Below are positions 1,881-39,645 of a DNA stretch of 41,012 bases, piece by piece. Position 1 is the first letter of the stretch. Each line of letters starts with the position of its first letter. Made by a program: the position numbers and the translations under genes. The stretch is from an uncultured Candidatus Melainabacteria bacterium (lineage in GTDB: Bacteria; Cyanobacteriota; Vampirovibrionia; Gastranaerophilales; Gastranaerophilaceae). The stretch is from NCBI GenBank assembly GCA_949741915.1, contig CATJOM010000119.1:1-41012 (forward strand), written 5' to 3'. Below the pieces are notes generated by a model. It made no database searches. It was not told the DNA's origin and saw only the letters and a list, made by a program, of their open reading frames with translations.

Positions 1881-3227
1881 ATGGAATTATTGTTAAACCC
1901 TGTTTTGGTATCTGTAATTATTCTCTGCTTATTATGTGTATTCAAGGTTAATGTCCTATTTTCTTTGATGATTAGCTCCATTATTGCGGGATTGATTTCC
2001 AAAATGCCTATAGACAGGATAATGGATTTATTTATTTCCGGCATGGGACAAAATTCCGAAACTGCACTGAGCTATATTCTTTTAGGAACTCTGGCAGCAG
2101 CTATGACCCATACGGGGCTGGCCAAAATAATTGCAATAAAGATTTCAAATTTTATTAAAAATAATAAATATCTTTTGATTGGCATTCTTGTTTTAATTTC
2201 AATAATGTCGCAAAATTTAATCCCTGTGCATATTGCATTTATTCCAATTTTGATACCGCCCTTGCTGCCATTAATGAATAAGCTAAGGCTCGATAGAAGA
2301 ATTATCGCCTGCTCTCTTGCCTTTGGCTTAAAGGCGCCTTATATAGCTATTCCTGCGGGGTTTGGGCTTATATTTCAGGGGCTTATTGCAGATAATATGA
2401 CAAATAACGGAATAGCAGTCTTGAAGCAAGATGTATGGAAATCCAGCTGGATTTTGGGTTTTGCTATGTTTATCGCTTTGTTGGTTGCCGTTTTTATTAC
2501 ATATAGAAAACCAAGGGAATATGCAGCCGATAAAACCAACAGTATGAAATGCAGCACCGAACAAGTTGAAGACTGCAATAAGAGTATTAGTATTAATGAC
2601 TCTGTTGATTTAAAATTTCATAAAAAACATTTTATTACCCTTTTGGGTGCGATAATTACCTTGGTTATCCAGCTTTTAAGCGGTTCTTTGCCATTAGGTG
2701 CATTGTGCGGGCTTATTGTAATATTTGGCCTCCGCGCTGTTTCGCATAAACATATGGATTTTTTGATTAATGAAGGTGTCGGCCTGATGGGCTATATTGC
2801 TTTTGTAATGCTTGTTTGTGCCGGGTATGCTCTAGTTTTAAAGGAAACGGGAGGAATTGAAAGCCTGATAAATTCAATTTTGCCGTTTGTCCAAAATTCC
2901 AAGCTGCTTGCGGCTTCAGCTATGCTGTTTATAGGTTTAATTATAACAATCGGCATAGGTTCATCCTTTGGAACAATTCCTATACTTGCAGTTTTATTTG
3001 TACCGTTGTGTTTAAAACTGGGTTTTTCGGCTCCCCAAAGCATAATCCTTCTTTGCGCTGCAGCAGCCCTTGGGGATGCAGGCTCGCCTGTGTCTGATAC
3101 AACATTAGGGCCTACAGCCGGTTTAAATGCCGACAATCAGCATAATCATATAAAAGATACCTGTATCCCCACATTTGTGCACTTTAATACAGCGCTCATT
3201 ATTGCAGCACTTATTGCGGTTTTATAA
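1881..3227 (+). CDS. YuiF/NhaC-type ion or amino-acid transporter
   Basis: A 448-residue integral membrane protein with about eleven or twelve hydrophobic segments. It resembles the Na+/H+ antiporter-family proteins of the NhaC superfamily, in particular the YuiF group annotated as antiporters or putative histidine permeases. Seen: the N-terminal pair of helices (about 7-40), a GTLAAAMTHTGLA segment near residue 70, a loop and helix with SQNLIPVHIAFIPILIPP near 110-125, and the C-terminal conserved GDAGSPVSDTTLGPTAGLN stretch near 400-418. The ATG at 1881 has no clear Shine-Dalgarno sequence. It stands alone on its strand, divergent from the TolC gene, followed by about 230 bases of AT-rich DNA. 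The family assignment is good; whether it moves sodium/protons or an amino acid cannot be told from sequence. Confidence 0.8.
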   Translation: MELLLNPVLVSVIILCLLCVFKVNVLFSLMISSIIAGLISKMPIDRIMDLFISGMGQNSETALSYILLGTLAAAMTHTGLAKIIAIKISNFIKNNKYLLIGILVLISIMSQNLIPVHIAFIPILIPPLLPLMNKLRLDRRIIACSLAFGLKAPYIAIPAGFGLIFQGLIADNMTNNGIAVLKQDVWKSSWILGFAMFIALLVAVFITYRKPREYAADKTNSMKCSTEQVEDCNKSISINDSVDLKFHKKHFITLLGAIITLVIQLLSGSLPLGALCGLIVIFGLRAVSHKHMDFLINEGVGLMGYIAFVMLVCAGYALVLKETGGIESLINSILPFVQNSKLLAASAMLFIGLIITIGIGSSFGTIPILAVLFVPLCLKLGFSAPQSIILLCAAAALGDAGSPVSDTTLGPTAGLNADNQHNHIKDTCIPTFVHFNTALIIAALIAVL

Positions 3228-3462
3228 AAATATTAAGTCCTATATTGCGTTGTATTTGTCTATATATTTGTTTATTTTGTAAATGTTGAATTAAAAATTG
3301 AGCTATAAATTTTTGGCTTAAGATATTAGATTTTTGTTTATTGCTAAATGTTAAAAATTGTAAAAGAATATCGCATCTCTGGCAAGTATTTTTAAGTACG
3401 CGTTTTATAACTATAAGTATTAAATTTAATTAAGTGTTATCAATTAAAAGGAGAGTTGCTTA

Positions 3463-5014
3463 ATGATTAATAATACAAGCAGGGTGAATACCGTGTTTTA
3501 TAATGATTTACACGGAACTTTAAAAAATGTAAGACGATTTGCCGTAGCTCAGGATGAGTTTTATAAAGAACATGAAAATGAAACCAATGTGACTATTGCG
3601 TCAGGAGATGTTTTTATGGATGCCAGTGCAAACAATGATACTCTTGCAAAAGAATTATTGCCAAGAACTGATGCAATTGCAATCGGAAATACGGATATTA
3701 ATGCAGGAAATTATTTGGGCAAAATGATTAAAAAATTTGCCATGCAGGGAAAATGGTTATCCTGCAATCTTCGGTTTAATAGAAAGAACGATATTGAAGA
3801 TCAAATTTCCAAGAGCACTATCATAAATAAAAACAATGACCGAATTGGCGTAATAGGTGTTTCTCCTCTTGATTTTCAGGATAAATTATATGGAAAAGAT
3901 GATATTGATTTTATAGAAGTACAGCAATTAGAAAAAACAAAGAAAAGCATAAGAGAAGAAGTTGAAAAGCTAGAAGAACAGGGGGTCAATAAGATATATT
4001 TAGCTGCCCACACAGGGGAAACAAGTAATGGCACCGCAAAACACCATGACGGAGCAGATGAAGAAAAATATTATGATGAATTTTCTAAAATTGGCGGTAT
4101 TGATGTAATAATAGGAGGCCATGACCACAGACATACGGATAAATGGGCCACAACAGAAAGAGGCGAGCCCGTTAGAATCGTTTCAACAGGCGTTGGTTCA
4201 GATTATCCGTTTAAAGAAAACCTGAATGTTGTTGGCCTTATGAACAATGTTTTTGATGAAAATGGCGTCCTTATTAAGGAAGCTTCTGAATGCAATTTCA
4301 AAACAATAGATGACATCCAAATTGATAATGAAATAGAAACGGGGGGGGGTAATACACACGCTGGATAGGCCTCTAAATCATCTGGAATCTATGAAGCTAT
4401 TAAAGAGCGGACATTTTGGAGAGATAGGAAATATAGTTGCAGATTCCAATCTTTGGTATGTTAATAACCACACAAAAGGGAAAAGGGCTGATTTCGCTTT
4501 TGTAAACCCCGGTAATATAAGGGCAAATTTTGAAAATGCTGAAATAACGACGCAGGATGTTCAATCGGTTGTTCCATTTACAACCTCAACATTAATTAAG
4601 ACAGATTTAAGTAAAAAGCAAATTATAAATACACTTAATTGGTGTGCTCAATCTACCGAATTCCAGAGAGTTGTACCAGGTGTAATGCAGGTTTCAGGAA
4701 TGGAATACACCATTCATCCTGATTTAACAGTATCGGATGTACATATTATGAACGAAGATGGCTCAATTAAATACAATCTCGATGATTATAATGATGATGA
4801 CATGTTTACGGGCGTATATGATACTTTCCTTGCAACAGGCTGTGACGGACTTAAAGATTTAGCGAAAGACTGCAAAAATGACAGTTCGGTTGAAATTTTT
4901 GATGCCACAAGGGAAAAAGCATTATCGGAGTATGTGACACAAAACAATAAGTTGATTAACTATAAAAATGCAAGAATAAAATTTGCGCATAATGATGCAA
5001 TTATAAAAAAATAA
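3463..5014 (+). pseudogene. 5'-nucleotidase-family metallophosphatase, frameshifted at a G9 run
   Basis: Two adjacent reading frames together make one protein of about 515 residues. The first (3463-4368) is the metallophosphoesterase domain with NDLHG (residues 14-18), SGDVFMDA (46-53), AIGNTDIN (72-79) and IGGHDHRH (about 217-224). The second (ATG 4391-5014) is the C-terminal 5'-nucleotidase domain, with NPGNIRA and a GVYDTFLATGCDG motif. The break is at nine G residues, 4341-4349. Removing one G joins the frames as ...GGVIHTLDRPLNHLES..., which reads naturally for this family. The start follows a good AAAGGAG at 3450-3456. No signal peptide is visible, unusual for a family that is often exported, and the usual GNH[DE] motif is GNTD, so a metal-ligand His is missing. 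It could be a phase-variable gene, a pseudogene or a sequencing indel. Confidence 0.85.
4341..4349 (+). repeat. G9 homopolymer inside the metallophosphatase gene
   Basis: Nine consecutive G in otherwise AT-rich coding DNA. The run sits exactly where the reading frame is lost; eight or eleven G would restore it. Long G/C runs are known slipped-strand mutation sites. Confidence 0.95.
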
Positions 5015-5233: not shown

Positions 5234-7213
5234 ATGAGTGGTGCAAATCAAATTAACATATGCATAGCATGTGATGATAATTATTCAAAATATGCAGGCG
5301 TTGTTATGGCATCTGTTTTGTATAATGCTGCAAAAAATGATGAAATTACTTTTTATATTTTGGATGGTGGTATTTCCGAGGAGCAAAAGAATAATATAGA
5401 TTTGCTGAAAAATATAAAGAATTGTAGCATTAAATTTATTAAGATTGACGAAGAATTGTTTGATGACTACAAGAATATAAAAACCCATAGCTATATTTCT
5501 ATTGCAGCTTGTTATCGTCTGAAATTGCCGTCATTATTACCTGATGTCAAAAGAGTAATTTATTTTGACTGTGATTTTATTGTAAATTCAAGTCTTAAAA
5601 AATTATTTAATAAAGATTTGGGCAAATATCCTATTGCGGGTGTTTTGGATCTTAACAAGCGGATGTTAAAGAAAAATCCATCCTATATAAATTCTGGTAT
5701 GCTTGTAATGGATTTGGATTTAATGCGAATTCAGAATTCTGAGGATATTCTTCTTAACTGGACAAAAGAGCATATTGATACCATAAAAACTGGAGATCAA
5801 GAAATTATTAATGAGGCACTTAAGGGTAAAATCAAGGTTATAGAGGATGAGTGGAATGTGCAGTCAAGTAATTTTACAAACCGGTCCAGCTATGCAAACA
5901 ATCCTAAAGGAATTCATTTTGTTTCAAAAAATAAACCCTGGCATTTTGGTTCATTTAGCTATCATAGGAATTTGTATTTCAAATATCTGCAGATGACACC
6001 TTGGAAAATGAATGAAAAAGAGCTTAGGCGCTGGACTTTTGACAACCAGATTATATCTTTATTTAAATATCTAAAGTACAGACCACTATTCCTTTTTCGT
6101 CCGAGGTTTTATGAGGCATTGTTTAAGACATATATTTTGCCTTTGTTTGAGTATAGGAAACCCGTTATAAAAAATAATACATTTTTAATTTGGGAGCCGT
6201 GCAGCAAGTCTCATTCAGAGGTTTTACCGGGCTTTGCAAAATATTTACTTGATTTAGGATACCATGTTTCGGTTCTATGTACACCAGAAAGGATTAAAGA
6301 AGGCCTATTTTCAAGGTTTAAAGATGCAAATTTAACTATAAACAAAATGTCAAAAAAGCAGGTCAGAACTTTTTTTGTGAAGAATAATCTTGAAGATATT
6401 GAAGGACTTTTGGTCACTACTGCGGGTAAACTTTGTGATAGTGTGCATTATGGGGATATTTACAAGCATTTTAATAAAGATATTGATAAAAAGAAAATTT
6501 TGCTTGTTGAACATGAGGCTTGTCACAGTGTGGATAATGGCAGCTGGTGTGATAATTTAATAATGCTTCGAGAACTTAACTATAAAGGTGTAAAGTGTAT
6601 TAGTGTAAATCCCCATTATTTTGGCGATGTTAAAATTACTCCAAAAAATACCGATGTTACGAATTTTATCACAATAGGTGCGCTTCAATATAAAAAAAAG
6701 AACTGCAGTTTGATAATTGATTCTGTTCAAAAACTTTTAGATAAAGGATATAAAAATTTTAAGATTACAGTTGTAGGAAAAGGGCATCTTGATGACCTGC
6801 CGCTAGATTTAAGACAGTATTTTGATATCAAGGGAAGATTGTCATTCAATAAAATGTATGAGGAGCTTGAAAAAGCAGATTTTTTGCTGACTGCCTATAA
6901 TGACAAAGACCCAAAACACATAAGGTATAATACATCCGGCACAAGTGGAAATTTTCAATTGGTATATGGCTTCGTAAAGCCTTGCGTTATCATTGAAAGT
7001 TTCGCATCGATTAATGGATTTAATGATTCAAATTCTATTATTTATAAGGATGATTCTTATTATGTAAATGCACTTGAAAAGGGTATAAATATGAGTGCTA
7101 TTGAATATGAGGTTATGCAGAAAAATCTTTCTGTCTTGGCTTTGAATATATATAATAATTCTAAAGAAAATTTGAAATATCTAATTGAAAGCAATGCAGG
7201 ATATTCCTCTTAG
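5234..7213 (+). CDS. two-domain glycosyltransferase: GT8 fused to GT-B-like domain
   Basis: The 659-residue product has two halves. Residues 5-280 are a GT8 (LgtC/glycogenin-like) domain: ACDDNY near the N-terminus, the metal-binding DxD as D112-C-D114, INSGMLVMDLDL near 153-164, GDQEIIN near 193-199, and KPWHFGSFSYH near 236-246. Residues 310-655 resemble a GT-B-type retaining glycosyltransferase, with GYHVSVLCTPERIKEG, FITIGALQYKKKN, and YNTSGTSGNFQLVYGFVKPCVI in the place of the usual nucleotide-sugar site. It would transfer two sugars to a surface glycan from nucleotide sugars in the cytoplasm. The start at 5234 follows AAGGG at 5218-5222; an overlapping ATG at 5230 is out of frame. First gene of the glycan operon. 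The GT8 call is firm; the fold of the second domain is inferred, and sugar specificity is unknown. Confidence 0.8.
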   Translation: MSGANQINICIACDDNYSKYAGVVMASVLYNAAKNDEITFYILDGGISEEQKNNIDLLKNIKNCSIKFIKIDEELFDDYKNIKTHSYISIAACYRLKLPSLLPDVKRVIYFDCDFIVNSSLKKLFNKDLGKYPIAGVLDLNKRMLKKNPSYINSGMLVMDLDLMRIQNSEDILLNWTKEHIDTIKTGDQEIINEALKGKIKVIEDEWNVQSSNFTNRSSYANNPKGIHFVSKNKPWHFGSFSYHRNLYFKYLQMTPWKMNEKELRRWTFDNQIISLFKYLKYRPLFLFRPRFYEALFKTYILPLFEYRKPVIKNNTFLIWEPCSKSHSEVLPGFAKYLLDLGYHVSVLCTPERIKEGLFSRFKDANLTINKMSKKQVRTFFVKNNLEDIEGLLVTTAGKLCDSVHYGDIYKHFNKDIDKKKILLVEHEACHSVDNGSWCDNLIMLRELNYKGVKCISVNPHYFGDVKITPKNTDVTNFITIGALQYKKKNCSLIIDSVQKLLDKGYKNFKITVVGKGHLDDLPLDLRQYFDIKGRLSFNKMYEELEKADFLLTAYNDKDPKHIRYNTSGTSGNFQLVYGFVKPCVIIESFASINGFNDSNSIIYKDDSYYVNALEKGINMSAIEYEVMQKNLSVLALNIYNNSKENLKYLIESNAGYSS

Positions 7214-20545: not shown

Positions 20546-23500
20546 TTATTTTTTGCGGCGAAATATTTTTTTGAAAAAGCCTTGTTTTTTGGCACCTTCA
20601 GCTGTCTCATTTGGTGATGTTGCGGAGCCATGTATTGCTGTATTTTGAAGGGTTTCGCTCGTATTAGACGTATTTTGTGCGTTACTTGTGGTTGAATTTG
20701 CACTTAGCACTCCTTTTGAGTTTTGCCCTAAAAGTTTTTCTGTTATTGTATCAATCTTGTTAAACGACGGTTGCAGTGTTTCTATGACTTCCTGATTTCG
20801 TTCTGCTGCCTTATGCAGGGTTTCCCGGAGTTCGGTTTGGGCTGTAATAAGCGGATTTGTTTTCTGCATGTATTTTTCTGTTGATTCAGAAAATGTTGTT
20901 TTAGGAACGGTATTATTAATTACGCCTGTAGCTTCTGCAAAAATGCGTGATTTTGTTGAATTTCCTGAATTTTTTGATATCTCAGCCTCGGCAATACCTT
21001 TTAACTGTGATATTATATGCTCAATGCTTAAAGAGCCCTCCTTTTGGGATAATAAATCATCAAGAGCTTCCATGCCGTTTACATCTTTTGTATTTACTAT
21101 TGCTGAAAGTTCTTCGCCAGTAAAGTCTTTTAAGTGTTTTATGTTAGTTGGGAAGTTTTTCAGGGCAGCTTTCGGAAGGGTGCTTATGTGGTCAAAATAT
21201 TTGCCTTCAAGCGCATTATATGCCTCTTTATTAGTGTTTAAAAGCGATAAAAATAATTCATTGTTAGGCAAAGAATCTGTGTGTTCTGTTATTTTATCTG
21301 TAGGCGCCGCTTTTTCTGATAATTCGCTGCCTGCAGTCTGTGAAGTTTGGACTGTGCCTGCTAATGTTTCATCATAAGAATATGTGCGCACTTCTATTGG
21401 TCTTAAAATTTCGCCCTCTTTTGTTTGAAAACCTGGGTGAAGAGTTCCCGCCACTTTGCCATCTAATGTCTGATTGCCGGTTTTTACAGTGTTGGCAATT
21501 ATCATATATTTATTATCAAAGTTTTCACCCGGGTTTAGCCGTATAGTTTTAATGCCAAATTCATCAAAAAGAAGTTTTTCTACTTTTGAAAGCATTTCAT
21601 CAATTGGTGCAGCGTTACTAGAGCATTCTTGCAGGTAGCTTGCTTTATTGCAGTCCAATATGTCAACTTTGTCTTTCAGCTCTTGAATTATAGTATTTTT
21701 TGTCTCTTGTCTTCTTTGTTCGACAATTCCTTTAAGGAGGCTCTTTTCGCCTGCTTTTGCAGTTTTGCTCATCAAAGCATCTTCTAACGATTTTGCGGCA
21801 TCTTGTGCTGAGGCGGTTTTTTCATTAACATTGTTTACAATTGTTTTGCACTGTTGCGAGAACATATTTAATAATTTTGCAGTATCTGAATCAATGTTTT
21901 CGCCTGAATATTTTTCAATTGTTTCATTGTATATAGCCTGTATATTGTTTACCAGCCGGGTTTGTTCGCTACTAAAGGCATCCGCTGCTTTTTTAACTTC
22001 TTTAAGCAATGATGCACCTGCACTAGAAGCTTGTCTTGTGGTGGTTTTTGGGTTTGCAAGGAGATTTAGGAATTTTTTATCATAAGTATAAGTTTTTTCA
22101 GGTGTTTTTATATAATTGTAAAGTTGTTCAAGCCCTTCTTCTGATTGAATAATACGTTTTATGCCGTCAGGGCTAAATTCATCAAAGGCTTTTTGTAATG
22201 CTTTGCTGCTGCCTGATTCTATATAGCATACAAGCTCTGCAAACGTTTCAGGACTTTCTTTGCTGCCTGTTTTTTTAAGTATTTCTGCTATCAGAGTGTT
22301 TATTTTTGCAAGGTTTCGCAGAGGGAGTAAATCTGTTTTCCCTATATTCTCAGGGTTGGCATTTAAAAGGTTTTGCAGCCAAGTTTTTGTGGATAATGTT
22401 TCGTCGGCGGTGGTTACTGTGGTATCTTTTCCTGTGCCAAGCGCATGAAGGTATTTTATTGATTCATCTATTGCCTTTTGTGTGTAACTGGCGTCCGAGC
22501 CACTGTAAAATTCTGCGACGCAGCCAAATTCAGAAAGACCTGTATGGAATTTTGCAATATTTTTTAATTCTTCCGGGGTGAATTCTTTTGATAATGTTTC
22601 AATGAGTGTTGTTAAGTTTTCCGGCATATTATAGGTGGCGTTACTAAGTTCATATGCAAAGGGTTCAAAAGCTTTTTTGAATTTCGCATCAGTATTACTT
22701 TTAGCCACTGCTTCTTTGTATTTTAAAAAGCGTTCGGGATAATGAGTCCGATTACTGTTTTTGGCAGCCCGTTGTGCCAAGTGAAGCAGATATGCGTTTG
22801 TTGGTGGTATATCAAGCTGATTGACTGCATGGATTGCACTTTCCTGATTTTGTTTTGGCAAATTTAGAATAAAATTATTCGAATTTGATTTTTGTATGTT
22901 AAAACCTGCCTTTATTTCATCTATAAGTTTTTTAGCTTCATCTGCATAAGGGTTTTTTACGGGTGTCCGTTGTGCTTCTGGCTCTGTTTTGGTTTCAGGT
23001 TGCACTTTTCCATCCTGCGCAGGATTTTGAATACCTTTGGAAAAATCATCAGATTGCACATCGGTACCATCGTTTTTAATATCTGCACCAGTCTGGCTTT
23101 GTGTTTTGGGTAAGGAGTCTGATTTATTTAACGGCCCATCTGTCTCTTCGGCTGTTAATGTACTATTACTTGCGCAATCGCCCGATAACGCTTCTTTCGT
23201 GTCTTCTTTTATTGATTCTTGTTTTTGGGGTTCTTGTTTAATTGGTTTATCTTTTATTGGAACGTCTTTTAAGGACGACGATGTTTCACTATTATTAGGA
23301 AGTTTTGTGATTGGCTTTTGTTCTTGCTTTTGCTCTTCTTTTGGTGTTGATATTATTGGTTCATCAGATGAATGTTTAGTATCTTCTTTCAATAGTGCAG
23401 TATCATCTATTGAGACTTTGTCTTCTGTTGTTTTAATTATAGGGTTATCAGATGTATCATCAAGAATTTTTTCTATGTCTTCAGGTTTGCCTTCTGGTTG

Positions 23501-24082
23501 TTTCTCTTTGACTTGCTCTTGATTTATTGGTTCTTGTTTTAAAGCTTCGTTTGTGCCTGATTCTTTTTTGATTGGTTCATCTATGATTGGCTCCTGTTTT
23601 TGGGGCTCATTTATGCCTTGTTCTTGATTCAGAGTATTTGAAGGTTTATTTTTATTTACTGCTTTTTCATAATCCTCTTTACCTTTTTTAGTAAATGTTC
23701 TTAATCCTTCTCTGAATTTTTTAAATAATCCTGCTTCTTTATTATTTTCAAGCATTATATTGCCTTTTTTAACCATTGATGAAACAAAAATAATGCTTGC
23801 AGTTAATGTTGTTAAGCTTCCTATTAATGCAGCGATTGCAGTTTTCTTTTTTATTTCTTTGCCTGCTATTATTATGGTGTCGGATGAGGGTTGAGGAGTA
23901 AGTGATGGGGCAGGCGATGCTGCTTTGTTATTCTCCTGTTCAGTGTTTTGAATGTTTACAAGTTGTCTGGAAGCGTTTATTGAAGGGTTTTGCCCTGTAA
24001 TATTTTGCGCATTATAAACATTCATCTGGGCAAAGGTTTTTAATTCGCCAAAATGTAAATTATTCGTGCTATTTATATCCAT
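20546..24082 (-). CDS. 1,178-residue protein of unknown function with one membrane segment
   Basis: No family recognised. Seen: an N-terminus MDINSTNNLHFGELKTF without a classical signal peptide; an Ala/Pro/Ser-rich linker; one predicted membrane helix at residues 81-103 (TAIAALIGSLTTLTASIIFV); then a basic stretch. Residues about 140-390 are an acidic, low-complexity linker of Glu/Lys/Pro/Gln repeats (QEPI, KQEP, EEQK, KEDTK). Residues 390-1120 are a helical region interrupted by a short YMIIANTVKTGNQTLDGKV beta-like segment near 900. The end is strongly basic (GFFKKIFRRKK). GGGAG lies seven bases before the ATG, an excellent start. It stands alone, about 160 bases upstream of nadE on the same strand. 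Likely a membrane-anchored protein whose long charged linker spans part of the envelope; this is inference. Confidence 0.85.
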   Translation of the reverse strand: MDINSTNNLHFGELKTFAQMNVYNAQNITGQNPSINASRQLVNIQNTEQENNKAASPAPSLTPQPSSDTIIIAGKEIKKKTAIAALIGSLTTLTASIIFVSSMVKKGNIMLENNKEAGLFKKFREGLRTFTKKGKEDYEKAVNKNKPSNTLNQEQGINEPQKQEPIIDEPIKKESGTNEALKQEPINQEQVKEKQPEGKPEDIEKILDDTSDNPIIKTTEDKVSIDDTALLKEDTKHSSDEPIISTPKEEQKQEQKPITKLPNNSETSSSLKDVPIKDKPIKQEPQKQESIKEDTKEALSGDCASNSTLTAEETDGPLNKSDSLPKTQSQTGADIKNDGTDVQSDDFSKGIQNPAQDGKVQPETKTEPEAQRTPVKNPYADEAKKLIDEIKAGFNIQKSNSNNFILNLPKQNQESAIHAVNQLDIPPTNAYLLHLAQRAAKNSNRTHYPERFLKYKEAVAKSNTDAKFKKAFEPFAYELSNATYNMPENLTTLIETLSKEFTPEELKNIAKFHTGLSEFGCVAEFYSGSDASYTQKAIDESIKYLHALGTGKDTTVTTADETLSTKTWLQNLLNANPENIGKTDLLPLRNLAKINTLIAEILKKTGSKESPETFAELVCYIESGSSKALQKAFDEFSPDGIKRIIQSEEGLEQLYNYIKTPEKTYTYDKKFLNLLANPKTTTRQASSAGASLLKEVKKAADAFSSEQTRLVNNIQAIYNETIEKYSGENIDSDTAKLLNMFSQQCKTIVNNVNEKTASAQDAAKSLEDALMSKTAKAGEKSLLKGIVEQRRQETKNTIIQELKDKVDILDCNKASYLQECSSNAAPIDEMLSKVEKLLFDEFGIKTIRLNPGENFDNKYMIIANTVKTGNQTLDGKVAGTLHPGFQTKEGEILRPIEVRTYSYDETLAGTVQTSQTAGSELSEKAAPTDKITEHTDSLPNNELFLSLLNTNKEAYNALEGKYFDHISTLPKAALKNFPTNIKHLKDFTGEELSAIVNTKDVNGMEALDDLLSQKEGSLSIEHIISQLKGIAEAEISKNSGNSTKSRIFAEATGVINNTVPKTTFSESTEKYMQKTNPLITAQTELRETLHKAAERNQEVIETLQPSFNKIDTITEKLLGQNSKGVLSANSTTSNAQNTSNTSETLQNTAIHGSATSPNETAEGAKKQGFFKKIFRRKK

Positions 24083-31315: not shown

Positions 31316-31327
31316 AATTTTTACATT

Positions 31328-31371
31328 AAATGATAGTCTGCTAAAATTCGCTTGGTAGGCTATCATTTTTT
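31328..31371 (+). terminator. intrinsic terminator after the hypothetical gene
   Basis: AAATGATAG (31328-31336) and CTATCATTT (31360-31368) pair perfectly with a T-run after the second arm on the plus strand. It lies 13 bases beyond the stop codon. Confidence 0.8.
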
Positions 31372-31461
31372 AATACTATATGTATTTTAGGCAAATGTAA
31401 AAATTTCCTTTTGTCTTATAAAGACTAGAATAAAAAGAAAGCATCCAATAAACAATATTAA

Positions 31462-31590
31462 TTACTTTTTTTCTTTATAATCCGGCAATTCATGATTTGC
31501 TAAGCCATGTGCTACGTATGGCAAAGCTATTGCCAAACATATTATTGCTATTGTTTGAATTGTCATATTAAAAATATCAATACCATTCAT
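31462..31590 (-). CDS. 42-residue putative small membrane protein
   Basis: An ATG at 31590 opens a frame of 42 codons ending in TAA at 31462-31464. The product has one hydrophobic helix (about residues 8-29, NMTIQTIAIICLAIALPYVA) and a charged tail (ELPDYKEKK), the profile of a single-pass bacterial small membrane protein. The ribosome binding site is only a weak A-rich AAGAAAAAA stretch. It lies about 50 bases downstream of the broken larE on the same strand, and might belong to the guanidine-riboswitch operon. No homologue recognised; it may be too short to be called by usual gene finders. Confidence 0.5.
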   Translation of the reverse strand: MNGIDIFNMTIQTIAIICLAIALPYVAHGLANHELPDYKEKK

Positions 31591-31643
31591 TTTTATTTTT
31601 TCTTTTTGTACAAACATATTCCAAGAGTTTTAGTTACATTAAT

Positions 31644-32435
31644 TTACAGTATTTTATTCATATTCCCTGTTTTATAGCCCTCTAAATCAAGTGATATATA
31701 CAAAAAACCGTATTTTTTAAATTCCGATATAATTTTATCTTTATTTCGATGATTTTTTCAAAATCTTTTAAAAGCACTTCTATTCTTGCAGTTTGGGCGG
31801 ACACTCTTACTCTTGCCTGATAAACCCCTAAGGAATGAATATATTTTTCTGCTTCTTCAATCATTTTAAGTTTTTCTTTTGTTATTATGTCGCCATAAGG
31901 AATTCTTGAAGCAAGACACGCAAGCGAGGGCTTGTTGTGTGTTTTAAGGTTAAATTTTTTTTGACAATGCTCTTATTTCAGTCTTTGTTAAGCCTGCATT
32001 TTGCAGAGGACTTTTTATGTTTAGTTCCTTAACTGCTTTTAGCCCTGGCCTATAATCGCTGTTATCATCAATATTTGAACCTTCAAGAATGTGTTTAATT
32101 TTATTTTCTTCGGCAATTTTTTTAATCCTTGTAAACATTTCCTTTTTGCAGATATAACATCTATCCTTCGGATTTTTATTAAAACCTTCAATACTAAAAT
32201 TGTCAAATTCACATATAATATGTTTTATATTTTCTTTTTTACAAAATTCTTTGGTTTTATATAATTCTTGTTTTAAAAAAACTGGAGAATCAAGAGTGAC
32301 TGCTATGACGCTATCTTTTAATATATTGTGTGCAGCTTTTAATAAAAATGTAGAATCAACCCCGCCTGAGTATGCAATTATGGCGGAGCCTAAGCTTTGC
32401 AAATATTGATTTAATTCATCTAGTTTTTTGTGCAT
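31644..32435 (-). pseudogene. larE: LarE-type ATP-dependent sulfur transferase, two frameshifts
   Basis: LarE provides sulfur by sacrificing a cysteine for the nickel-pincer cofactor of lactate racemase. The first frame (32435-31950) has the PP-loop SGGVDST at residues 23-29, the Cys-containing KDRCYICKKEMF (about 98-110), and EGSNIDDNSDYRPG. It stops at an A8 run on the coding strand (31955-31962); one A fewer continues as KKFNLKTHNKPSLACLASRIPYG, rejoining a second frame (RVSAQTARIEVLLKDF). A second shift near 31745, one base missing, is needed to reach FLYISLDLEGY and the stop at 31644-31646. Restored length would be about 263 residues, normal for LarE. Its role with the upstream guanidine-linked genes is unknown; the two indels make a functional product unlikely. 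Confidence 0.85.
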
Positions 32436-33210: not shown

Positions 33211-33528
33211 TTAGTGTGCTAATAATTTTAATCCAGCTATTCCTGATATTATAAGTGCTATAAAGATAAATTTTGCAAAGGTTATAGGCTCTTTAAATAA
33301 TATTATTCCAAAAATTACAGTTCCGGTTATTCCAATTCCTGTCCAGACTGCATATGCTATTCCAAGCGGCAGATTTTTTAACGACAGGGATAAAAAATAA
33401 AAGCTTAGAAACATACATATAACTGTGAAAACAGATGGTGCTATCTTGCTAAAGGCATCGGAAAATTTCAAACCAATTGCCCAGCTAATTTCAAATATTC
33501 CTGCTATTAATAAATAAATCCAATGCAT
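33211..33528 (-). CDS. gdx: guanidinium exporter, SMR family
   Basis: 105 residues with four membrane helices: small multidrug-resistance family. Features of the Gdx (SugE) branch rather than drug-exporting EmrE are seen: Glu13 in FEISWAIGLKFSDAF, and PLGIAYAVWTGIGITGTVIFGI in helix 3, the guanidinium-binding core. Gdx works as an antiparallel dimer, exchanging guanidinium for protons in the inner membrane. AGGA lies eight bases before the ATG. It sits directly behind a guanidine-I riboswitch, which gives independent support. First gene of an operon with the radical SAM and LarE-like genes. Strong call. Confidence 0.94.
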   Translation of the reverse strand: MHWIYLLIAGIFEISWAIGLKFSDAFSKIAPSVFTVICMFLSFYFLSLSLKNLPLGIAYAVWTGIGITGTVIFGIILFKEPITFAKFIFIALIISGIAGLKLLAH

Positions 33529-33554: not shown

Positions 33555-33590
33555 AGCCCAGAGAAGATATCTTTGAATATCTCCCGGGCT
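33555..33590 (-). terminator. riboswitch-controlled terminator
   Basis: AGCCC (33586-33590, read on the minus strand) pairs with GGGCT (33555-33559), with GATAT/ATATC pairing inside. The hairpin shares bases with the end of the aptamer (the conserved GCCCGGGAGA), so ligand binding and termination exclude each other. A short T-run follows on the minus strand. Confidence 0.75.
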
Positions 33591-33680
33591 TTTATCCTTC
33601 CGTGTACACAGAAACAAGTACTTGTACTGTGCGTTGTCTCTTGGACCAGACCGGTTTTTTTGCCGCGGAACCCTAGAAAA
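33579..33680 (-). ncRNA. guanidine-I (ykkC) riboswitch
   Basis: On the minus strand the conserved blocks of the ykkC class occur in order: CTAGGGTTCCG (from 33676), CCGGTCTGGTCC, AAGAGACAA, a variable stem, ACACGGAAGG and ATAAAAGCCCGGGAGAT (ending at 33579). These are the established binding elements of guanidine-I aptamers. It precedes gdx by about 50 bases and an overlapping terminator, so guanidine should permit transcription of the gdx operon. Confidence 0.95.
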
Positions 33681-33775
33681 CTTTTTATTTAAATTTTTAT
33701 CATTTTAATGATATATTTAAAATTTTTTCTTGTCAAAATTTTGTAATTCCTCATGTTTTTTGATATATTCAGTTT

Positions 33776-36631: not shown

Positions 36632-39478
36632 TTAATCAGTTTTTATTATAGTAACCATTTTGCCATTATTATTGAATACTGCCTTTATGTCGTCTGACTC
36701 AGTATTAAAATAAGCAATGAATGTATTGTCGATTTTTGATTTTTCAATTTTTTCAGGTGTTTCATTGTATATTGTTTTGAAAAGATTTTTCATTTTTGTT
36801 TTGGTTTCATCTGTGTATAAATACTTAATACTTCCTTCTTTGTTTAGTGCAAGCCTTTCAATTGCTCTCAATTTTGCATGAAGAGTGAGGTTTGGTTGAG
36901 TGGCATTTTCATGCGCAAAATTTATCCAGTCATCCGAATTAACAAAGGATACAAATTCTTCACTGAGTGCACTTGCCACTGCGCATAAATATTTTGATTG
37001 TTCATCAATACTGCTATTGCTAATTCCTAAATCTTTTCTTGAGAGCCTTAATTCTCTTGTGATATTTGCGTATTCTTCATTCTTTCCTTCTAATTTTACT
37101 ATTTCGCGGGCTATTTCTTTAGGGGTGATATTTTGACCTTGAATTGCGAATGCATTACTTAAGCCTGCTATAAAGTTTTCATGCTTTTTATTTGAAAGCT
37201 GTGCTGCAAGCTTCATCAATAAAGTAAATCTGCCTTTTTGATATTTTATTACATCTTTCGGATTTAATAGACATATATTATTGCCTGTTATTTTTATCGG
37301 AATTCCAGCCCCTGTTAATGAAGATTGAATATCATTTACATGTTCCACAAATTCTTCAAGGCTTATATCTAAAGGCAAATTTTTAATATATCCTAAGATT
37401 TCTTTAAAATTGCCAGTTTGTTCGTCTGAATATTTTTGTAGAATTTCTGTCAAAGTTTTTGGTGATTCAAGTTCTCTATTAAGGGCTATTCTTAGCACTG
37501 CCTTTAGGTTAAGTTCATTTTTGCAGATTCCAATAAGGGAGCCGATATCTGATTTTGAATTTCGTATAAATCCTGATTTTGTTAGTTTTCTTACGCTATC
37601 ATAATAAAATTTTGGATTGTCTTCATTATTTAAGGCAGCTAAAATTTTTATTATATTTTTCCTGAAAACCCTGCTTTTATAAGATGAATCAAGTTTTATT
37701 TCATTTTCTATGATGAAATCTTTTGCTGCAGTTTTATCTTGGAAATATTCTAAAAGCGTATTAAATGCTTCCGTTTTTTGTGCGCAGTTTTGTTCTTTAT
37801 CATGTCTTATCAAGTCTGCATAGTTAAATAACTCAAGTCTGCCGTTTTTGTCTTTATGTAACAAATCCTGATTTTCCATAAAAACTTCGAATGCGCTTTG
37901 CCCTGCAAAGTAAATTGAATCATTTTCCGACAGTTGTTTTTCTATTTCAGGCTTTAGCTTTTCATAGTTTTCTTTTTTATTTAAAAGTTCTTGCTTGATG
38001 GGATAATTTTTGTTGCTTTTGAATTTTTTTATAACTTCTTTGTCGGCAAATAATAATAAATCTACAAATTCCTTGATATCATTTTTTGAAATTTTATTTT
38101 TAGTATTATGCGCTTTTTTCTGTCTCTTTTTCGAGGAGCTTTTTGTATCTTGAGGACTGTTTATTGCATTAAACAGTGCAATGAATTCACTGTCGTTTTT
38201 GATTCCAAATTCATCAATTACTTTAAGTGTATCTTGAAGCCTTTTTTGTGAAGTTTCGTTATTTATGTCGAATACTGAGCTTATTGTCTCAACAAAGTTT
38301 AGATAAAATTCTTCTGCTCCTTCTTTATTCAGTCCTTTTAAGTCTATTAATTTTTCTGTTATTGTATTTTTGTATAGAATGCTATTAATTATTGAGCTAC
38401 TGTCTTGTATTAATGCGCTCCTTGAAATGTTGTTCAAAGTTTGGACTGATAAATTTTGTTCGCTTAGGGCTGAATAAAGTTCTATTTTTCCTTCTGTTGT
38501 TTGTATGTCAAAAAATTCTGATACCTTTGTTTTAACTGGCGTACGCACAGAGCCAAAATCTAGCGCCGTTTTTATGATTGCATTTCTTGATTGTTCTGAA
38601 TAGTCGTAGTTTGTATTCTGAAAATAATCGAATATTTTGGGCGCTCTGCAGTATGTTGTTGTGATATCTGCATCTTGAAATTCAGGATTTGCTTCTGTGA
38701 AGGAATTAATGATTTTTTCGCATTCGGCTGCGCTTTCTGATAGATAATTGATAAGGTAAAGTATTTCAGGCGGGTTCTTGAAATCATTAAAATTGTCTTT
38801 TAAATAATCAAAACGGGACAGTAATTCTTTTTCGGATTTAAATCCAAGGGCTTTAATTGTATTTAAAAAATCATTTATATCATTATTCTCGCCATCAGGA
38901 AGCTGCCTTGAGTTTTCAATTATTGCAATTGAATTCGGAAATCTTGTTAAGTCGTACTTATCGTTAAGTTTGCTAAAAGCATTTATAAAGTGCAGAGCAT
39001 ATCTTTTAAGCTCGGGAAATTCTTTAGTTATGCCGTCATACATTTTAGAAAGTTCAAAAATTTCTCTGCAGTTTGTGATTCCTCCATTTTTAAGGATTCG
39101 GGTGATATTTGTTCTGGCGTTTTCTGCATCTGGATTATCTTTGGCAAAAAAGATATTATTTAACTGTTCAACTCTGGTGTTTGGGGTTATTTTTGTATAA
39201 AGTTTTTTTGAGACGATATGTTTCATATATTTGTTAAGATGATTGTTCCAATTAATATAATCGTCTTTAAAGTCTGCATTAATTTGTTTTGCCGCCTCAC
39301 CCTTTTCTAGTGTTTTTAATTCAATCATTTGCCCATTAAATGTTACAGATGAAACATTGGTGCTTTTTGTAAAGGTGTCAGCATTTGAACTATTATATAA
39401 AATAGGACGTGTTTTTTGATTTATAATATTTGAGGAGTTTCTATTGTAATTAAACAGGGTATTAAAACTTATGTTCAT
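36632..39478 (-). CDS. about 948-residue protein of unknown function
   Basis: The start at ATG 39478 is chosen because AAAGGA precedes it by six bases; the open frame extends 17 codons further without a better start. The protein begins MNISFNTLFNYN, has NADTFTKS near residue 35 and VTFNG near 46, and then a long, almost wholly helical, Lys/Glu/Asn-rich body made of many short helical hairpins (for example FYDSVRKLTKSGF, NALEFKEILGYIKNLP-type segments). No signal peptide, membrane helix or catalytic motif is evident. A central basic patch (SSKKRQKKAHNTKNKISKN, around 460-480) is notable. Followed by the GDPD gene in one operon. Similar in style to the 1,178-residue protein at 20546, but without its membrane helix and acidic linker. 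Function unknown. Confidence 0.85.
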   Translation of the reverse strand: MNISFNTLFNYNRNSSNIINQKTRPILYNSSNADTFTKSTNVSSVTFNGQMIELKTLEKGEAAKQINADFKDDYINWNNHLNKYMKHIVSKKLYTKITPNTRVEQLNNIFFAKDNPDAENARTNITRILKNGGITNCREIFELSKMYDGITKEFPELKRYALHFINAFSKLNDKYDLTRFPNSIAIIENSRQLPDGENNDINDFLNTIKALGFKSEKELLSRFDYLKDNFNDFKNPPEILYLINYLSESAAECEKIINSFTEANPEFQDADITTTYCRAPKIFDYFQNTNYDYSEQSRNAIIKTALDFGSVRTPVKTKVSEFFDIQTTEGKIELYSALSEQNLSVQTLNNISRSALIQDSSSIINSILYKNTITEKLIDLKGLNKEGAEEFYLNFVETISSVFDINNETSQKRLQDTLKVIDEFGIKNDSEFIALFNAINSPQDTKSSSKKRQKKAHNTKNKISKNDIKEFVDLLLFADKEVIKKFKSNKNYPIKQELLNKKENYEKLKPEIEKQLSENDSIYFAGQSAFEVFMENQDLLHKDKNGRLELFNYADLIRHDKEQNCAQKTEAFNTLLEYFQDKTAAKDFIIENEIKLDSSYKSRVFRKNIIKILAALNNEDNPKFYYDSVRKLTKSGFIRNSKSDIGSLIGICKNELNLKAVLRIALNRELESPKTLTEILQKYSDEQTGNFKEILGYIKNLPLDISLEEFVEHVNDIQSSLTGAGIPIKITGNNICLLNPKDVIKYQKGRFTLLMKLAAQLSNKKHENFIAGLSNAFAIQGQNITPKEIAREIVKLEGKNEEYANITRELRLSRKDLGISNSSIDEQSKYLCAVASALSEEFVSFVNSDDWINFAHENATQPNLTLHAKLRAIERLALNKEGSIKYLYTDETKTKMKNLFKTIYNETPEKIEKSKIDNTFIAYFNTESDDIKAVFNNNGKMVTIIKTD

Positions 39479-39645
39479 ATTTATCCTTTCAGGAATGGTA
39501 TATTCTACAAAACGAAAAAAAGAAAACAATTGCTAGTTTTAGTATTTAAAGTTTTGTAAATTTTTATCTTTTTGGATTGCTATTTTATATATAATAGGAA
39601 AAATAATTTTCATATAGTTGTTTTACAGACAAAGTGGTTATAAAA

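Follow-up and report, generated by a model that had tools for sequence, protein, structure and literature searches.

A nucleotidase-like gene probably toggled or broken by copying slips at a G9 tract, in a bacterial family with G-tracts in prepilin-like genes

In the 41,012-nucleotide stretch of DNA analysed here (the window), which comes from an uncultured gut bacterium of the order Gastranaerophilales, a gene for a 5'-nucleotidase-like protein changes reading frame at a run of nine G. The locus raises the question of whether such a gene is subject to switching through changes in tract length, is decaying, or is intact and only appears broken in the assembly. The features that define the locus are the following.

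1881-3227, plus strand: Na+/H+ antiporter family protein, intact, the upstream neighbour.
3463-4368, plus strand: N-terminal half with a calcineurin-like metallophosphatase domain (PF00149, E 3e-9), 301 aa in the present phase.
3685-3696, plus strand: metallophosphatase motif GNTD, with the Thr codon at 3691-3693, where GNHD is expected from relatives.
4341-4349, plus strand: G9 homopolymer in the inter-domain linker, at the frame change.
4352-5014, plus strand: C-terminal half with a 5_nucleotid_C domain (PF02872, E 8e-17), open in the +1 frame, first ATG at 4391.
5234-7213, plus strand: glycosyltransferase family 8 protein, intact, the downstream neighbour and start of a glycan gene cluster.

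The tract, flanked by C on its 5' side and by TAATACAC on its 3' side, is the only G/C run longer than six in the window. Dinucleotide shuffles of the window gave a mean of 0.04 such runs, with one run present in 4 of 100 shuffles, confirming the rarity claimed for it in the initial annotation. That the tract marks the exact point of the frame change also holds, since PF00149 and PF02872 lie in different frames. The PF00149 frame, with a GGAG at 3450-3453 ahead of its start at 3463, stops at a TAG at 4366-4368. The domain order is thus that of the 5'-nucleotidase/UshA/CD73 family, PF00149 followed by PF02872, but split over two frames. With 8 or 11 G, both domains are fused in a protein of about 516 codons, so a change in tract length switches the frame of an otherwise open gene. 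Restoration at these two lengths had been proposed from the window alone, and it agrees with the sister species (G001), in which the junction is in a single frame and has the residue count of the 8-G reading. The sister species has no G-run there; an ordinary codon mix, GGTTCGCCTGTG, occupies the position. A promoter and terminator scan around the gene gave nothing above chance.

Both halves of the protein resemble their counterparts in the sister species, with amino acid identities of 75% over 184 codons before the tract and 78% over 211 codons after it. The dN/dS ratio was about 0.08 before the tract, and dS was saturated after it. From these comparisons both halves look to have been under selection over the divergence from the sister species. 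Because the two halves are conserved and dN/dS before the tract is low, the frame break should be recent or often undone. The locus also does not appear to be old as a G-run locus, since the gene contains no G-run in any of the two-domain orthologs. The search in related genomes that the initial annotation had proposed therefore yielded no ortholog with a tract at the equivalent place. Conservation of the tract in orthologs was rejected; a split copy in genome G189 breaks at a site without a G-run. An exact search of the tract flank in a viral collection gave no match.

The account that we favour, with a confidence somewhat above even, is that the G9 run is a recently arisen slipped-strand mutable tract in a two-domain 5'-nucleotidase-like gene that is presently out of frame. 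The run would have arisen recently in the inter-domain linker, after which replication slippage would gain or lose G in the tract. The consensus length would leave the PF02872 domain out of frame and give a 301-residue metallophosphatase fragment, and a length change of one or two bases would bring both domains back into one frame. We infer that the tract changes length at a high rate and that both phases of the gene occur in the population. Slipped-strand instability is the best account because the tract is real, is unlikely to be due to chance, and belongs to a genome whose tracts appear to change length.

The main rival is a pseudogene in the making, in which, without MutL, one slip occurred after or together with loss of the catalytic His, selection is gone and the tract has no switching role. 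We consider this reading unlikely, though less so than the other alternatives discussed below. It stays alive because the catalytic His is lost: the family motif is GNH followed by D or E, two-domain relatives carry GNHD or GNHE, and the ten closest of these with a readable motif all have GNHD, while the window gene has GNTD. The replacement contradicts the earlier statement that the motifs were conserved and that there was no other damage. Judged from the sequence, GNTD may be either a second, independent lesion or a divergence. Further points in favour of decay are the absence of the tract from orthologs, the copy in the sister species, of which the N-terminal third is not recognisable and adjoins a contig end, and an intact paralog with GNHE elsewhere in the genome (L034, contig C48). 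An intact relative aligns with solved 5'-nucleotidases, including PDB 2z1a.

Loss of the His alone does not mark a gene as dead, since six shorter relatives, from one genus and six genomes, encode the first domain only with GNRD at this position and have been retained without a C-terminal domain. These relatives and the C-terminal frame of the window gene, which has no stop and keeps its identity to the sister species, argue against decay, as do the mixed in-frame and out-of-frame G-runs elsewhere in the genome, which fit ongoing slippage. The same six relatives would favour a reading in which the fragment encoded by the N-terminal half functions by itself, the C-terminal half being a remnant. 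We give this hardly any credence, because the C-terminal half is conserved as much as the N-terminal half and is free of stops.

No signal peptide was evident by eye in the window gene (N-terminus MINNTSRVNTVFYND, no hydrophobic signal) or in its relatives, and the earlier implication of a surface gene is therefore unsupported. By the same judgement the protein shows no evident export signal of the kind found in the 5'-nucleotidase family; it further differs from that family in its GNTD motif and in the frame change that separates its two domains.

Plain gene decay is seen in the window as well, as indicated by a second gene with a homopolymer-associated frameshift, which adds to the case for a pseudogene.

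31316-32435, minus strand: PP-loop ATPase (LarE-like) gene, with one frameshift at an A8 run (T8 at 31955-31962) and another further on.

The damage in this gene has the pattern of a plain pseudogene, as far as can be read from its sequence. Nearby, a Guanidine-I riboswitch (33579-33687, minus strand) lies just upstream of a gene for a small multidrug-resistance-type transporter (33211-33528). Many proteins of the lineage share a short N-terminal segment with NFG, HFG, FNG or FKG (e.g., MDINSTNNLHFGELK), among them those encoded at 20546-24082 and 36632-39529 of the window (both minus strand) and neighbours in L038 and L041; it is possibly a lineage-specific N-terminal signal.

The frame change could also be an assembly or sequencing error at a homopolymer, with a true tract of eight G and a gene that is always intact. 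The assembly is a draft in 126 contigs, long G-runs are difficult to sequence, and two contigs end in such runs. However, none of 52 conserved genes compared elsewhere in the genome was frameshifted, which indicates that random assembly indels are rare and led us to reject general assembly noise. An eight-G run would also be rare here, and the excess of long runs described below does not depend on one base. We regard this explanation as improbable.

To place the tract in its genomic context, G/C runs were counted in 416 kb consisting of the window and contigs C48 and C54, each known to hold one tract. There were 674, 108, 19 and 0 runs of lengths 4 to 7, followed by a single run of length 8 and two of length 9, with counts dropping about 6-fold per extra base. 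By extrapolation about 0.7 G-runs of at least nine are expected in the whole 2.45 Mb genome, and 14 were found (Poisson P ~2e-14). The nine G of the nucleotidase tract are thus accompanied by a genome-wide excess over chance. The same count for A/T runs gave 104 runs of length eight, 6 of length nine and 2 of length twelve, with no comparable excess, so it is long G-runs specifically that are over-represented. Such runs also put at least two other genes out of frame, and one base would join the parts of each: a prophage tail fibre on contig C42, and an unknown protein on contig C122, whose C10 run limits it to a 189-residue frame that a one-base change extends to 260 aa. The runs on C48, C39 (CheR-like) and C96 (DegT aminotransferase) are in frame. 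Phases are therefore mixed in this genome, which is the outcome that slippage predicts. Contigs C60, inside a G9 in a second, related tail fibre, and C63, in an 11-base run, terminate in G/C runs, as would happen if length variants interrupted the assembly.

The tail-fibre genes allow a comparison of tract lengths. On C42, the Phage_tail_fib N-terminus and the Collar C-terminus are split by a G9 run and a frame change. G-runs between a tail-collar N-terminus and a Collar domain were located as follows.

L040, 3168-3176: tail-fibre G-run.
L105, 4084-4095: tail-fibre G-run.
L043, 2949-2957: tail-fibre G-run.

Aligned over 4,538 bp, IMG/VR contig 3300006217_000456 and the C42 region differ by 2 substitutions and 1 gap, and this sole gap is the tail-fibre G-run, with 12 versus 9 G. 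Neither length is in frame, and the difference keeps the phase. Two assemblies of similar reads may disagree here. The comparison is nevertheless the strongest indication that, in this species, G-runs may change length faster than the surrounding DNA. No length variants of the first tail fibre other than 3300006217_000456 were found in the viral contigs, no other copy of the second tail fibre was found there, and the tail fibre had no match in a phage collection. Hypermutable polyG tracts have been reported in Campylobacter phages (Sorensen et al., 2021, Cell Rep 35:109214, cited in PMC10877375). The prophage tail-fibre genes here are alike in carrying G-runs, one of them with two lengths; they differ in that the phage is another one, the run parts a tail-collar N-terminus from a Collar domain, and both lengths are out of frame.

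Loss of mismatch repair destabilises mononucleotide runs. MutL (PF01119, TIGR00585) was not found in this genome, which is 98% complete, or in its only congener, whereas 34 of 39 relatives possess it. Both genomes of the genus (G000 and G001) do have MutS, but it is among the weakest-scoring and most diverged. Besides these two genomes, MutL was also not found in G003, G005 and G022. Its loss as a general cause of G-tracts was rejected, since the tract-rich relatives G023 and G010 have MutL.

In many genomes of this family G9 runs are common, and they are rare in the order's other families. In 400 kb of genome G023, chosen for containing such runs, 40 runs of at least nine were present but 3 of six to eight. 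Most are located 27 nt downstream of an ATG, and one of the three phases encodes prepilins of the FTLAEVLITLGIIG type. The pattern of GGAG, ATG, 18-30 nt and G9 was found in 106 of the 288 genomes of the family, which belong to 23 of its 41 genera, and the reversed pattern is nearly absent. With one locus taken from each of 24 genomes, 6 were in frame and 18 out of frame. In a set of 59 tract genes from nine genomes, selected for having tracts, 56 have the prepilin motif and tract lengths range from 9 to 13. Nine of these genes are in frame and the other 50 are not, a division biased somewhat toward OFF calls by taking the longest of three phases as the true one; the needed shift goes in both directions. 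Matches to N_methyl (PF07963) were seen for four in-frame tract genes, of which three exceed the cut-off for that domain.

L085-L104 (G023), L106-L129 and L136-L175: prepilin-like genes with G9-G13 about 21-30 nt past the ATG, mostly out of frame, dozens per genome.

The genome to which the window belongs does not have this start-proximal prepilin pattern. In G010, the gene immediately downstream of the nucleotidase homolog is prepilin-like and carries a G-tract (L063, tract 3156-3167). The papers searched contained no description of the prepilin G-tract pattern and none linked Gastranaerophilales with phase variation.

The family tracts also bear on recoding, in which ribosomal frameshifting or transcriptional slippage on the G-run would give the full protein without a change in the DNA. 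G-runs are slippery for both polymerase and ribosome. The shift required in the nucleotidase-like gene is +1, however, and not the usual -1, and the RNA of this region is not stably structured (z +1.29). That the family tract genes need shifts both ways points to random DNA slippage instead of one programmed direction. Programmed frameshifting was rejected on the basis of these differing shifts and the unstructured RNA, and recoding as a whole appears very improbable.

Slipped-strand instability of the nucleotidase tract is thus supported by the excess of G-runs, the 9 versus 12 G in a second tract, the missing MutL and the family-wide start-proximal tracts. The earlier proposal of a phase-variable contingency locus is supported in part, and adaptive phase variation, i.e., a contingency locus of which the switch is useful to the cell, is unproven. 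Most of what is known about slipped-strand switching comes from a small number of cultured pathogens. The closest likeness is to the polyG/polyC contingency loci of Campylobacter, Helicobacter and Neisseria, of which gonococcal pilC is an example: G-runs of about 9-13 in reading frames, AT-rich DNA, mixed frame states and restoration by one base. In contrast to those loci, the phylum is different, nothing evident marks the window gene as a surface gene, a usual but not strict feature of such loci, the gene lacks the evident export signal typical of phase-variable genes, MutL is missing in this genus and present in most tract-rich relatives, and switching is here a prediction.

The prepilin G-tracts of the family are a more interesting result than the nucleotidase tract itself. 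On balance we lean toward a large slipped-strand switching system in Gastranaerophilales, in which dozens of prepilin-like genes per genome, in many genera, would carry a G-run about 21-30 nt past the start codon and would be mostly out of frame, so that cells differ in their sets of pilin-like surface proteins; tail fibres and single genes such as the nucleotidase would have the same kind of tract. If this is true, automated annotation will label many tract genes as pseudogenes or fragments. Switching would then extend, at dozens of prepilin-like genes per genome, to uncultured non-photosynthetic relatives of Cyanobacteria in animal guts, and surface diversity and phage escape in this group would be directly measurable from existing metagenome reads.
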